A stretch of 50,264 nucleotides of DNA from Mycobacterium sp. UM_WGJ. Its GTDB lineage: Bacteria > Actinomycetota > Actinomycetes > Mycobacteriales > Mycobacteriaceae. A program made the position numbers and the translations under genes. Numbering within the stretch: position 1 is the stretch's first letter; each line of letters opens with the position of its first letter. The notes beneath the pieces were generated by a model, which saw nothing but the letters and a program-made list of their open reading frames with translations, searched no databases and was not told the DNA's origin. The DNA is taken from contig NZ_AUWR01000075.1 of NCBI RefSeq assembly GCF_000455125.1, forward strand, positions 1-50,264, given 5' to 3'. This document shows positions 2 through 2,644 of the stretch, one piece after another.

Positions 2-214
2 CCCACGGGGCACTGCCCATTTCGTCCGCTGACTGTTTCTGAACTGTTCGTCGGTGAATACAACACCGATATGCCGAATATGCCGTTTCGCGCGGTGGCT
101 ACCCGAGTATTCGACAAGTGGAGTGGGGGTCTGACCACTTGGGACAATTTGTTCCTGCCGGCGCCCTTGCGGTACAGCATGCCCTGCAAATCCTCTGGCA
201 GCGTGCCGGCGTAA
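2..214 (+). pseudogene. Possible 3' fragment of an unidentified plus-strand gene entering from the left edge
   Basis: An open frame runs from the window edge to a TAA at 212-214. Its first 45 or so codons read like protein (for example PLTVSELFVGEYNTDMP and FRAVATRVFDKWSGG). After about position 150 the frame is only the antisense of the carotenoid-oxygenase fragment, so a genuine product would be truncated there. I do not recognise the family. It may be a rearrangement junction or chance. Confidence 0.2.
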
Positions 215-293
215 TCGTCGATGGTGTAGTCATATTCTTCGTGCCGGGGGTCTAGACGGTGAGGTCGGCGTCGGCCGTGTCGGTGTTGGTCAC
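151..293 (-). pseudogene. Broken 5' end of a carotenoid cleavage oxygenase gene
   Basis: A GTG at 293-291 shares GTGA with the stop of the preceding D27-like gene, the usual sign of translational coupling. It opens a 13-codon frame (VTNTDTADADLTV) that ends at TAG 254-252. One frame over, starting at about 255, the sequence reads EEYDYTIDDYAGTLPEDLQG followed by MLYRKGAGRN. This resembles the N-terminal segment of the retinal-pigment-epithelium/carotenoid oxygenase family, where a pattern like GTLPxxLxGTLYRNGPG is typical. After GRN, at about position 151, the family pattern (an HWFDGDG-like stretch) is not seen in any frame. The gene therefore carries one frameshift near codon 14 and appears cut off or rearranged near position 151. 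A sequencing error could explain the first defect but not easily the second. The family cleaves carotenoid or stilbene double bonds with a non-haem iron. Confidence 0.6.
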
Positions 294-976
294 ATTCGGT
301 GCTGTCTGTTGAGGTGAGTGGTGGCTCGGTGAACGCGCAGCGTGCAGGACAATCCGGGCAGGTGCGGGTCGAACTCGAGCGGCATGGCTGAATCCTTGTC
401 GAACACCTTCTCGCAGGCGGACTTGCAGGCCATCAGGCACGAATGTTCCTGCGCCACAACGGCACCGGTTGCTGTATGCATGGCGCATTCCGGGATCTCG
501 TACACCAGTGTTCCGTCGGCTTCGACGCCGGTCCGGTGTATCGGTCCGACCAGAAATGTCGCCACGGACACCCCGGCGTCCATGATCTTGGGATATATCC
601 TGCGAGGGATCAGACCGACGGTGCCGAAGGCGGGCAGCAGGAACCGCAGCCAGCTCCGCAGCCGGGTGGCCACCGCGTCGGAGACCAACTGCTCGACGTC
701 TGCTCTGGGCATTACCGCCACCAATCCGGTGATGGCCCATTCCAATTCCCGGACGAACTGCCCATAGCGGCAGCGCCATGATTCACGGGCGGTCAGCCGG
801 GCCCGGGCGGGGATTCGCCCGGCGTTCACCGCTTGCCATCCGGCCTCGACCGCCGCGCGATCATCGGCGACTTGCCGCAGTAACGGCAGCAGCACCGTTT
901 CGGGTATGTCGCCCACCCGGGCCAGCATGGATCGCATGATCCAGTCATCACGTACGGCGGCGAGCCTGTTATTCAT
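290..976 (-). CDS. D27-like (DUF4033) carotenoid-isomerase family protein
   Basis: This 228-residue protein's C-terminal half matches what I recall of the beta-carotene isomerase D27 C-terminal domain (DUF4033). There is an FLVGP motif at residues 141-145, then LVYEIPEC (Cys164), then a C-x3-C-x3-C cluster (Cys180, Cys184, Cys188), then MPLEFDP and a closing SC (Cys211). Plant D27 isomerises all-trans to 9-cis beta-carotene in the strigolactone pathway; bacterial members are mostly uncharacterised. The N-terminal half is helical and charged, with no signal peptide. The ATG at 976 overlaps the stop of the Mce-associated gene by 4 bp (ATGA). The stop overlaps the GTG of a carotenoid cleavage oxygenase remnant, also by 4 bp. 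The three were therefore probably one translationally coupled operon, with carotenoid or apocarotenoid chemistry as the likely theme. Family call is fairly good; substrate is inference. Confidence 0.72.
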   Translation of the reverse strand: MNNRLAAVRDDWIMRSMLARVGDIPETVLLPLLRQVADDRAAVEAGWQAVNAGRIPARARLTARESWRCRYGQFVRELEWAITGLVAVMPRADVEQLVSDAVATRLRSWLRFLLPAFGTVGLIPRRIYPKIMDAGVSVATFLVGPIHRTGVEADGTLVYEIPECAMHTATGAVVAQEHSCLMACKSACEKVFDKDSAMPLEFDPHLPGLSCTLRVHRATTHLNRQHRM

Positions 977-1590
977 GGCATCTCGACCTTTGCAGCCTTC
1001 CACTGACCATCGAGCCGCTGCATCGTCATCACGATGCGGCTGCGGTCGATGCGTGGCTCCGGTATGTCGGTGTTGGTCACGGTCTGGTCGACGAACAGCA
1101 GCACTTCCATTTGATCCCTGGTCGCCGATTTGACCGCCGAGTCCACGACCACACCGTGCCCGGTCGCTTTGCGCGCTATCAGCACTTGGCGCAGCTGGCT
1201 GCTGGATTGGCGGTACAGGTCCTGGAACTCACCGGACACGCCGTCGAGGACGGTCGCGAAGTTCGTGTCCGGGTTATTGCTGTCGATCGGTGTCAGGGTG
1301 ACTGTGTAGTCCTCTGCCGCCTTCTGGGTTGCCGCGCCGGCGGCCTGAATATCATGACGGCTATTGTCCTGCCACCCCCGGTAGCCGCAACACGCCGCCA
1401 GCGCGAGAACTAGGAGCGCGACGGAGCCGCGGGCCGGGTGCGGCAGGCGTTGTGGCGATGCCGGTGCGGTCTCACCTCGGGTGTCACCGCCGCCGGTGGC
1501 CGTGCCGTCGATATCGGGTGGCTTCTTCCGGGCCTCAGGTGGGTGCAGCAACTGTGTGTCCGGCATGTGTCGGCTCTTTGTCAGTTCCAT
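973..1590 (-). CDS. Mce-associated membrane protein (Mas family)
   Basis: The protein has about 205 residues from ATG 1590, or 197 from ATG 1566. It has a charged, proline-rich cytoplasmic N-terminus, a single membrane segment (VALLVLALAACCGY) and an extracytoplasmic domain. That domain ends in the hallmark pattern of mycobacterial Mce-associated proteins: EVLLFVDQTVTNT, then an SRIVMTMQRLDGQW stretch. Such proteins accompany Mce lipid importers and are thought to stabilise or assist them; here there is no mce operon in view. The start at 1590 has AAGG six bases upstream; 1566 has a weaker AAAGAG, so the start is unsettled. The 3' end overlaps the D27-like gene by 4 bp, tying the two products together. 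A -35/-10 pair lies on this strand at 1702-1730. Confidence 0.85.
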   Translation of the reverse strand: MELTKSRHMPDTQLLHPPEARKKPPDIDGTATGGGDTRGETAPASPQRLPHPARGSVALLVLALAACCGYRGWQDNSRHDIQAAGAATQKAAEDYTVTLTPIDSNNPDTNFATVLDGVSGEFQDLYRQSSSQLRQVLIARKATGHGVVVDSAVKSATRDQMEVLLFVDQTVTNTDIPEPRIDRSRIVMTMQRLDGQWKAAKVEMP

Positions 1591-1701
1591 GGAATGCCTT
1601 GACGCTGCGGTTCGGACTCCGGCGGCATCACCGGCCCGCCATAGGGCAGGGGGATCGTGTGAGGACCTACCGGCGTCGGGTCGTGACTGGTGGACCAATA
1701 G

Positions 1702-1798: not shown

Positions 1799-2425
1799 GT
1801 GAGTGGCACGCGAGCGAAACCCGGTCCAGGGCGCCCAGCTGGCATCGACAGCGGCGATACCCGGCAGCGGGTGATCGACGCGGCGTGTCGGTGTTTCGCC
1901 CAGTACGGGTACAGCACGGCGACCAACAGTCTGATCGCCGAATTGGCCGGTGTCACCGCGGGGGCGGTGTACTACCACTACGGGGCCAAGAGCAAACTCT
2001 TCGACGCCGTGTGTGAGACCGTGTACGGCAAGATCATCGCGCGGTCGGCGGAAGTCGCGATGGCCCAGCCGCTTTCGGTGCGCGGACTGCTGCATGCGGT
2101 GCTGGGGGAGTCGATGCGGATCAACCACGAGTCGCCCACGCTGGCCGGGTTCGTCGCCACCGCGCCCATCGACGCGCGGCGTCATCCTGAACTCACCGAG
2201 GCGTTCGCCAAACAGGCCGTCGCTATGGCCGAGACGCTGACTGCAGCTGTGCGCCACGGCCAGGATCACGGCTTGATCCGCGCCGACCGGGATCCGGTGG
2301 CGATCGCGCGCCTGATCAGTACCATCGTCGATGGGTTTGCCCATGCGGCCGCGACTACCAGTCCGGCCGTCATGGATGACATGACCGCCTTGTTCGACTC
2401 TCTGCTGCTGGAAGCCGAGGGCTAG
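1799..2425 (+). CDS. TetR-family transcriptional regulator
   Basis: This 208-residue protein has a basic, flexible N-terminus followed by the TetR helix-turn-helix at about residues 22-68: RQRVIDAACRCFAQYGY, then TNSLIAELAGVTAGAVYYHY. A helical ligand-binding domain fills the remainder. It starts at GTG 1799; the ATGs at 1788 and 1791 run into a stop almost at once or are out of frame. It is divergent from the Mas/D27-like operon with about 208 bp between, so it is the natural candidate regulator of that operon and of itself. The ligand cannot be told from sequence; a carotenoid breakdown product or lipid would fit the neighbours but is speculation. Confidence 0.9.
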   Translation: MSGTRAKPGPGRPAGIDSGDTRQRVIDAACRCFAQYGYSTATNSLIAELAGVTAGAVYYHYGAKSKLFDAVCETVYGKIIARSAEVAMAQPLSVRGLLHAVLGESMRINHESPTLAGFVATAPIDARRHPELTEAFAKQAVAMAETLTAAVRHGQDHGLIRADRDPVAIARLISTIVDGFAHAAATTSPAVMDDMTALFDSLLLEAEG

Positions 2426-2479
2426 ACCGCCGCCGCAGGCCGTAGCGTTGACAGCGGTTCGTGTGGGGGCGTCGTGGCC

Positions 2480-2644
2480 GATTTGATCGCCGATTCCGGC
2501 GTGGACGCAACCACCCTGACGCGAATCTTCACTACGGACGCGGCGGCACCGTTCGGCGGGATCAAGGAGTCGGGTCTGGGCCGGGAGGGTGGCGGCGAGG
2601 GAATCGAGGAGTACCTCGAAACCAAGTACATCGCGCTGGCCTGA
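2480..2644 (+). pseudogene. 3' remnant of an aldehyde dehydrogenase gene
   Basis: The frame ending at TGA 2642-2644 contains [19 protein letters not shown] from 2537, followed by [16 protein letters not shown]. This is the characteristic C-terminus of succinate-semialdehyde and related NAD(P)-dependent aldehyde dehydrogenases. The upstream part ([18 protein letters not shown]) only vaguely resembles the family, and the catalytic cysteine and cofactor-binding regions are absent. This is therefore the last 35-55 codons of a deleted gene. It lies directly after the TetR gene and before rmlC, which reads the other way. Confidence 0.7.

Follow-up and report, generated by a model that had tools for sequence, protein, structure and literature searches.

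Organization of the locus

The stretch of DNA analyzed here (the window) is a 50,264-nucleotide contig of Mycobacterium sp. UM_WGJ. Near its left end, on the minus strand, a gene for a Mce-associated-type protein (MAS) is followed by one for a protein resembling the plant β-carotene isomerase DWARF27 (D27), designated D27L, and then by the 5' end of a carotenoid cleavage oxygenase gene (CCO1). An earlier note, made from the sequence alone, had taken these three genes as an operon for an apocarotenoid pathway. More significant is that relatives carry an intact cluster of ~25 genes, a whole yrbE-mce operon included, of which the window holds a remnant (Table 1).

The three genes overlap by 4 bp in succession, as had been described. 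The 3' end of MAS lies within an ATGA (973–976) that is also the D27L start, and the 3' end of D27L lies within a GTGA (290–293) that is the start of the CCO1 fragment frame. The ATGA overlap is common to Mycolicibacter relatives such as L020. The GTGA overlap is absent from the nearest relatives (e.g., L020), in which D27L stops a few bases before the CCO1 start, and it occurs in the window because the D27L frame extends four codons beyond the relatives' stop. The idea that Mycolicibacter ancestrally had all three genes joined by 4-base overlaps was rejected, since D27L ends before CCO1 in the relatives. A 4-base D27L/CCO1 overlap is present in a Nocardia locus (L015).

The downstream gene does begin as a carotenoid cleavage oxygenase, and it is indeed broken. 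The fragment matches residues 15–47 of intact CCO1 at 67% identity. It contains a premature stop and a change of frame and is cut off at a deletion junction at ~155/156. With its ~46 codons, the stub stops well before the first iron-ligand position and does not qualify as a PF03055 oxygenase by profile and histidines.

Table 1. Features of the cluster remnant at the left end of the window.
Feature	Position	Strand	Evidence and remarks
CONV internal piece (~residues 115–165)	5..155	+	tblastn 5–172, 77% over residues 115–170; blastn 18–156
CCO1 stub, ACO-type carotenoid cleavage oxygenase	156..293	-	~first 46 codons, out of frame with start, cut by deletion
D27L, D27-like protein, 228 aa, open frame	290..976	-	C164, C180, C184, C188, and C211 invariant in 18/18 aligned copies
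MAS, single Mce-associated-type protein, 205 aa, open frame	973..1590	-	named from position after mceF in relatives
mceF 3' remnant, last transporter gene of lost operon	1591..1683	-	blastn to G285 and nonchromogenicus loci; tail of MceF C-terminus
TetR-family regulator	1799..2425	+	PF00440 E 1.5e-13; 91% to G246; orthologue of intact-cluster regulator
2-oxoacid dehydrogenase E1-alpha 5' remnant (71 bases)	2465..2535	+	blastn to L053:12395-12325
Aldehyde dehydrogenase-like 3' remnant	2537..2644	+	blastn to L052:15453 and L053:200; 32% to the cluster's aldehyde dehydrogenase

Distribution of D27L and gene order

A search of 301 genomes of the family with D27L gave nine matches, eight of which were kept, the window's own included. 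The ninth match, in G072, spans 59 residues (E 6.7e-5) and was discarded as chance-like; that stretch gave no match to any of the nine query proteins used for the neighboring genes. A scan of named genome contigs yielded 13 D27L loci among 60 candidate stretches. These belong to Mycolicibacter nonchromogenicus, engbaekii, longobardus, and heraklionensis; Mycolicibacillus trivialis and koreensis; Mycobacterium intermedium, [Mycobacterium] fortunisiensis, and Mycobacterium sp. 1274756.6; and Nocardia inohanensis, uniformis, yamanashiensis, and acidivorans. At the level of the phylum, D27L was found in two of 396 genomes (the window's own and G099), and the plasmid and phage record collections gave no D27L match in either. 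With three loci whose contig stands in both collections counted once (G246, G133, and G099), D27L occurs in 17 other assemblies, two of which (L013 and L023) are nearly identical.

In all 17 of these assemblies, a full-length CCO1 lies directly 3' of D27L on the same strand, and mceF lies upstream. The intact oxygenase that the earlier note had suggested looking for in relatives thus exists, and the link to lipid import holds. Conserved neighbors lacking a carotenoid oxygenase, which that note had named as refuting its reading, were seen in none of the 17, a result strongly in its favor. The order MAS-D27L-CCO1 is found in 15 of the 17, MAS not having been found in L017 and L021. Given the recurrence of its order, the three-gene pattern is not due to chance. 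The three-gene operon is real in this sense, but it is part of a far larger system, described below.

CCO1 at ≥60% identity occurs in eight of the 301 genomes, seven of which also have D27L. The eighth, G187, another genome of the genus, has CCO1 alone (72% identity; L067, C97:126724-128139) between mmsA and rfbC in the fetched stretch, and this CCO1 is apparently what is left there of the same island, in a remnant unlike the window's.

The intact cluster in relatives

The wider cluster was compared in eight genomes, namely seven D27L carriers (G285, G246, G065, G291, G154, G133, and G099) and G187. All seven carriers have genes for a TetR-family regulator, CCO2 (a second oxygenase), YrbEA, YrbEB, MceA, MceF, D27L, and CCO1, as well as for a P450, an SDR, a Rieske oxygenase, the E1-alpha and E1-beta subunits of a 2-oxoacid dehydrogenase, FadD, and the acyl-CoA dehydrogenase ACAD1. 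Six of the seven also encode a second acyl-CoA dehydrogenase, a 2Fe-2S ferredoxin, a ChsH2-like OB/zinc-ribbon protein, a thiolase-like protein, and a lipoyl protein. Gene content, order, and conservation are direct observations on these loci. MceA and MceF were matched by name, and the frames between them are MCE-like by clustering. The YrbE permeases upstream of D27L match MlaE (PF02405; E 6e-58 and 6.9e-59), and the MCE domain (PF02470) is found in MceF (E 5.2e-15) and MceA (E 4.6e-9). MAS had no family model above cut-off in Pfam and NCBIfam profile searches.

The cluster of G285 occupies ~28 kb between rfbC and CONV/mmsA, and the same flanks occur in the window together with contig C4 of its genome. 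CONV is a convergent gene for a secreted-type protein 3' of CCO1 in mycobacterial relatives; it has no Pfam or NCBIfam family match (L013:10276-11034). An aldehyde dehydrogenase-like gene forms the edge of the intact cluster, adjoining the rfbC/rfbB flank. In G291, the E1/FadD part lies ~20 kb off, and the comparison extended as far as this part.

In G246, a block inserted between SDR and P450 (L053:17065-19499 and L034:1-11684) carries monooxygenase-like frames and a FadD-like gene along with a second 2-oxoacid dehydrogenase. The Nocardia locus L015 encodes, between CCO1 and CCO2, a 557-amino acid protein (L015:10749-12422) that has no Pfam or NCBIfam match and whose relatives lie beside the cluster in other genomes.

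Carotenoid oxygenases

CCO1 of relatives is a full-length member of PF03055 (E 5.1e-111 for a Nocardia copy and 2.6e-114 for a mycobacterial copy). The nearest solved structure to nonchromogenicus CCO1 is that of the Synechocystis apocarotenoid-15,15'-oxygenase (ACO; 2biw, full-length match, E 3.8e-64, 220 bits), as compared with 138 bits for another carotenoid cleavage dioxygenase (CCD) and 117 bits for a lignostilbene dioxygenase (LSD). Residues H170, H219, H288, and H469 of CCO1 align with histidines of ACO that we take to be its iron ligands, and these catalytic histidines are conserved without exception in the 18 copies aligned (those of the 17 assemblies plus that of G187). CCO1 differs from ACO in being part of an Mce-linked cluster, and the window copy is a stub.

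Relationship of D27L to D27

D27L carries the landmarks of the D27 C-terminal domain that had been pointed out earlier, FLVGP, VYEIPEC, C180-x3-C184-x3-C188, and PLEFDP...SC211. These reproduce the D27 order W/FLxGP, V/I-x-x-C step, C-x3-C-x3-C, and P...SC. The five cysteines of D27L follow the same order as in plant D27, although the spacings on either side of the C-x3-C-x3-C core (first to second cysteine, and before the last one) differ. D27L is also bacterial and tied to an Mce operon.

Comparison was made with two plant D27 fragments, both of which match PF13225 (D27-like_C, DUF4033) in Pfam (E 1.6e-33 and 2e-34). By hhalign, the D27L alignment matched these fragments with E 1.1e-4 and a probability of 56% over 75 columns, which take in the FLVGP and PxxxxxxSC flanks. 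None of 300 column-shuffled controls scored as well (best 28.1, versus 34.8 for the real alignment). PF13225 gave a match at E≤1 in 16 of the 18 D27L members, the best E being 0.0063. A search of the PDB with the D27L profile returned nothing significant (best E 1.7). Judged from sequence, D27L is most likely a remote homologue of D27 without being a formal member of PF13225.

The AlphaFold2 model of D27L (mean pLDDT 78.6, pTM 0.76) has a helical N-terminal part and a C-terminal part consisting of two strands, helices, and two strands. As for cofactors, the Arabidopsis D27 proteins are entered as 4Fe-4S with a question mark in a proteomics paper (PMC7672563), and one of them is given as 2Fe-2S in another paper (PMC6243122). 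Two candidate D27L paralogues in the window's genome were rejected, as the frame on contig C32 reads as an acyl-CoA dehydrogenase and that on C14 as a peptidase-like protein.

Promoter motif and regulator

An element, CACTATTATATTRGT, stands in front of the P450 gene in all seven intact genomes, and in six of these it is followed by a second element, AC(T/C)AATTAGT. Where the insertion in G246 has parted P450 and SDR, the first element precedes each gene, and the second element is degenerate before P450. In whole-genome searches, the first element occurred once each in G285, G291, and G065, at the P450/SDR promoter, and was absent from the window's genome.

With at most one mismatch allowed, the second element occurred 16 times in 341,019 bases (overlapping stretches and matches included), or at 12 distinct places; 20 first-order resamples averaged 0.35. 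All 12 places are at the P450/SDR promoter or precede E1-alpha, CCO2, or TetR/SDR2, the separate E1/FadD block of G291 included. Pairs of related half-sites precede E1-alpha and CCO2. No copy of the second element occurs in the window at this stringency. The motif itself is directly observed, and we infer that this AT-rich motif is the operator bound by the TetR-family regulator, a prediction from sequence.

The window's TetR scored 18.9 bits against the model of KstR (cut-off 280). Its best NCBIfam model was that of the ScbR autoregulator-receptor family (74 bits, cut-off 150), whose members bind lactone signals.

Decay of the cluster in the window's genome

Read from left to right, the remnant consists of a CONV piece; the CCO1 5' end, D27L, MAS, and mceF tail; the TetR region; the E1-alpha start; an aldehyde dehydrogenase-like tail; and the flank. 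This map is observed directly in the alignments with intact relatives, and on that comparison three deletions, with junctions at 155/156, 1683/1684, and 2535/2537, account for the losses at the locus. The earlier note had the pathway disabled at the cleavage step. CCO1 is broken, but the importer, P450, SDR, Rieske oxygenase, CCO2, and most catabolic genes are gone from the locus too, with only MAS, D27L, and TetR left as open frames.

The CCO1 match ends at about base 156 and passes straight into the interior of CONV, whose piece in the window runs to the contig edge. Contig C4 begins with a second CONV piece, after which come, as in relatives, frames for an mmsA-like aldehyde dehydrogenase, an acyl-CoA dehydrogenase, and a dehydrogenase. 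The presence of the CONV pieces on two contigs places the contig break inside CONV and the CCO1 deletion inside the contig.

The window's genome, which is rated 100% complete, has no close copy of MceA, CCO1, or CCO2 elsewhere (P450, SDR, and the Rieske oxygenase were not searched for elsewhere). The best other matches were 45% identical for MceA, 44% for CCO1, and 40% for CCO2, as against ~64–95% among intact clusters; the MceA match is a paralogue on another contig. The dN/dS of D27L in the window was 0.25 versus nonchromogenicus and 0.16–0.17 versus three others, compared with 0.13–0.22 among intact copies. For MAS, dN/dS was 0.27–0.31 in three usable rows, the other three of the six, those with herak, having been dropped (dN above 1, from an alignment or frame error). 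Since the values for D27L are near the intact range, decay of D27L is not yet visible, and the loss of the cluster was probably recent.

Comparison with known systems

In composition, the cluster resembles the Mce4/KstR cholesterol import and catabolism cluster of mycobacteria. Shared components are a YrbE/Mce importer, MAS, P450, Rieske oxygenase, FadD, acyl-CoA dehydrogenases, ChsH2-like and thiolase-like proteins, and a TetR-type regulator. Unlike the Mce4/KstR cluster, the present one has two carotenoid oxygenases and D27L, and its regulator is not KstR. The M. tuberculosis oxygenase gene Rv0654 (MtCCO) lies beside the Mce ATPase gene mkl and is not known to have a D27-like partner. The two M. 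tuberculosis carotenoid oxygenases, Rv0654 and Rv0913c, offer a parallel in that they occur in a mycobacterium without carotenogenic genes, according to a review (PMC5133782).

The island MmGI-1 of M. massiliense, a different island, likewise combines an mce operon and β-oxidation genes, but in the available part of its description the one carotenoid oxygenase mentioned for the genome sits elsewhere, and no D27-like protein is mentioned (PMC4263727). The mce7 operons have, like the present operon, a single downstream Mas gene (PMC1810536); in the available main text of this mce-operon phylogenomics study, there are no words beginning with carotenoid, oxygenase, or P450 (dioxygenase-type words being uncounted). 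Among the matches listed in open-licence literature, titles and abstract openings did not describe the present cluster, and no link of an Mce system to carotenoids was found.

Proposed function and alternatives

We consider it reasonably likely that the intact cluster serves Mce-type import and catabolism of an external carotenoid or apocarotenoid; the window locus is a relict of this cluster. The YrbE/Mce transporter and MAS would carry a hydrophobic substrate across the envelope. D27L, as an Fe-S or iron enzyme of the D27 type, would isomerize a double bond between cis and trans, and ACO-type CCO1 along with LSD/NOV-type CCO2 would cleave the polyene to aldehydes. The methyl-branched chain could be broken down by the aldehyde dehydrogenase, FadD, the paired acyl-CoA dehydrogenases, the ChsH2-like/thiolase-like pair, and the 2-oxoacid dehydrogenase, and the ring end could be attacked by the P450, Rieske oxygenase, ferredoxin, and SDR. 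TetR would probably control the cluster through the conserved AT-rich operator. The substrate, the direction of import, the isomerase activity, the regulation, and the order of steps are in this scheme what the gene set suggests.

A number of results weigh against this scheme, and they bear on both the substrate and D27L. The nearest solved structures to CCO2 are LSD/NOV-type enzymes, and its best NCBIfam model is LigStilDioxAlpha (375 bits, cut-off 800), so that the substrate could be a stilbenoid or another isoprenoid; for CCO1, the NCBIfam carotenoid and stilbene models scored 162 and 168 bits, both far below cut-off. These likenesses, and that of the ChsH2-like, thiolase-like, P450, and Rieske genes to steroid clusters, would fit a cluster that imports and degrades some other bulky lipid or phenolic (stilbenoid, diterpenoid, or steroid-like), in which the double bond cut by the oxygenases is not that of a carotenoid and D27L does something else. 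We regard this as a possible though less likely explanation, as CCO1 is clearly nearer to the apocarotenoid oxygenase than to the lignostilbene dioxygenase and as the adjoining D27-like protein in all 17 assemblies is hard to account for otherwise. The carotenoid synthesis marker CrtI (phytoene desaturase, TIGR02734) is above cut-off in three of nine genomes, namely the three Nocardia carriers examined. It was not found above cut-off in any of six mycobacterial genomes (four intact carriers, the window's genome, and G187; best 89.9 versus 238.1 bits), which makes carotenoid synthesis by the mycobacterial carriers themselves unlikely and favors import, with the proviso that CrtI is one marker only. 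It is very improbable that the pathway is instead biosynthetic, as in plants, with D27L, the two oxygenases, and the P450 producing an apocarotenoid signal akin to carlactone or strigolactones and the Mce system serving for its export or recycling. The core strigolactone gene set does consist of D27, two CCDs, and a P450 (PMC5133782), and counterparts occur in all seven D27L genomes compared. CrtI in the Nocardia carriers and the below-cut-off ScbR likeness of TetR point the same way. No in-house carotenoid precursor is evident in the mycobacterial carriers, however, and ~ten genes for acyl-CoA metabolism, ring oxidation, and ketoacid dehydrogenation indicate breakdown. The acyl-CoA-degrading genes, together with the lack of a CrtI above cut-off in mycobacterial carriers, favor import and catabolism over strigolactone-like biosynthesis.

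As to D27L itself, the window protein scored 16.9 bits against PF13225 (E 0.0063), below the curated cut-off of 27 bits, so that the profile check proposed in the earlier note did not bear out formal membership, while the remote likeness stands on the hhalign result and cysteine order. Of four members searched singly, PF13225 ranked first for the window's, second to DUF6410 for two, and was absent for one. Across 396 actinobacterial genomes, the model gave nothing above cut-off, four other chance-like matches at 17–18 bits, and no match in the carrier G099, for which reasons its score is weak on its own. The profile alignment retains the distance to the last cysteine and shifts the two C-x3-C-x3-C cores against each other by one C-x3 step, and in HMMER the D27L profile hit one plant fragment at E 0.003 and the other at 3.5, only one of the two being separated from shuffles. 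The resemblance might accordingly be convergence on a short cysteine motif in an unrelated cysteine-rich metal protein; this is unlikely in view of the single alignment that includes the flanks, the shuffled controls, and the gene context, in which a carotenoid oxygenase gene adjoins D27L. It is similarly improbable that MAS and D27L still function in the window's genome, serving another Mce system or oxygenase. Their open frames, a D27L dN/dS only slightly above that of intact copies, and three other CCO-family places in the genome would agree with continued function; the promoter motif and entire upstream operon are gone, the D27L frame lacks its normal end, and a low dN/dS also fits recent loss.

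Implications

Substrates have been established for few Mce systems, and D27 chemistry is known mainly from plant strigolactone synthesis. A further suggestion, which we hold to be quite improbable, is that soil and host-associated mycobacteria and Nocardia possess a dedicated system by which plant-type 9-cis-apocarotenoids (carlactone, strigolactone-like compounds, or their precursors) are read, remodeled, or consumed. If so, D27, two CCDs, and a P450, as used by plants in making strigolactones, would have been placed on an Mce importer. More generally, a D27-type isomerase paired with an apocarotenoid oxygenase in bacteria would, if true, be relevant to where D27 chemistry arose and how widely it is used, and the 17 intact loci provide a concrete gene set for experimental work.

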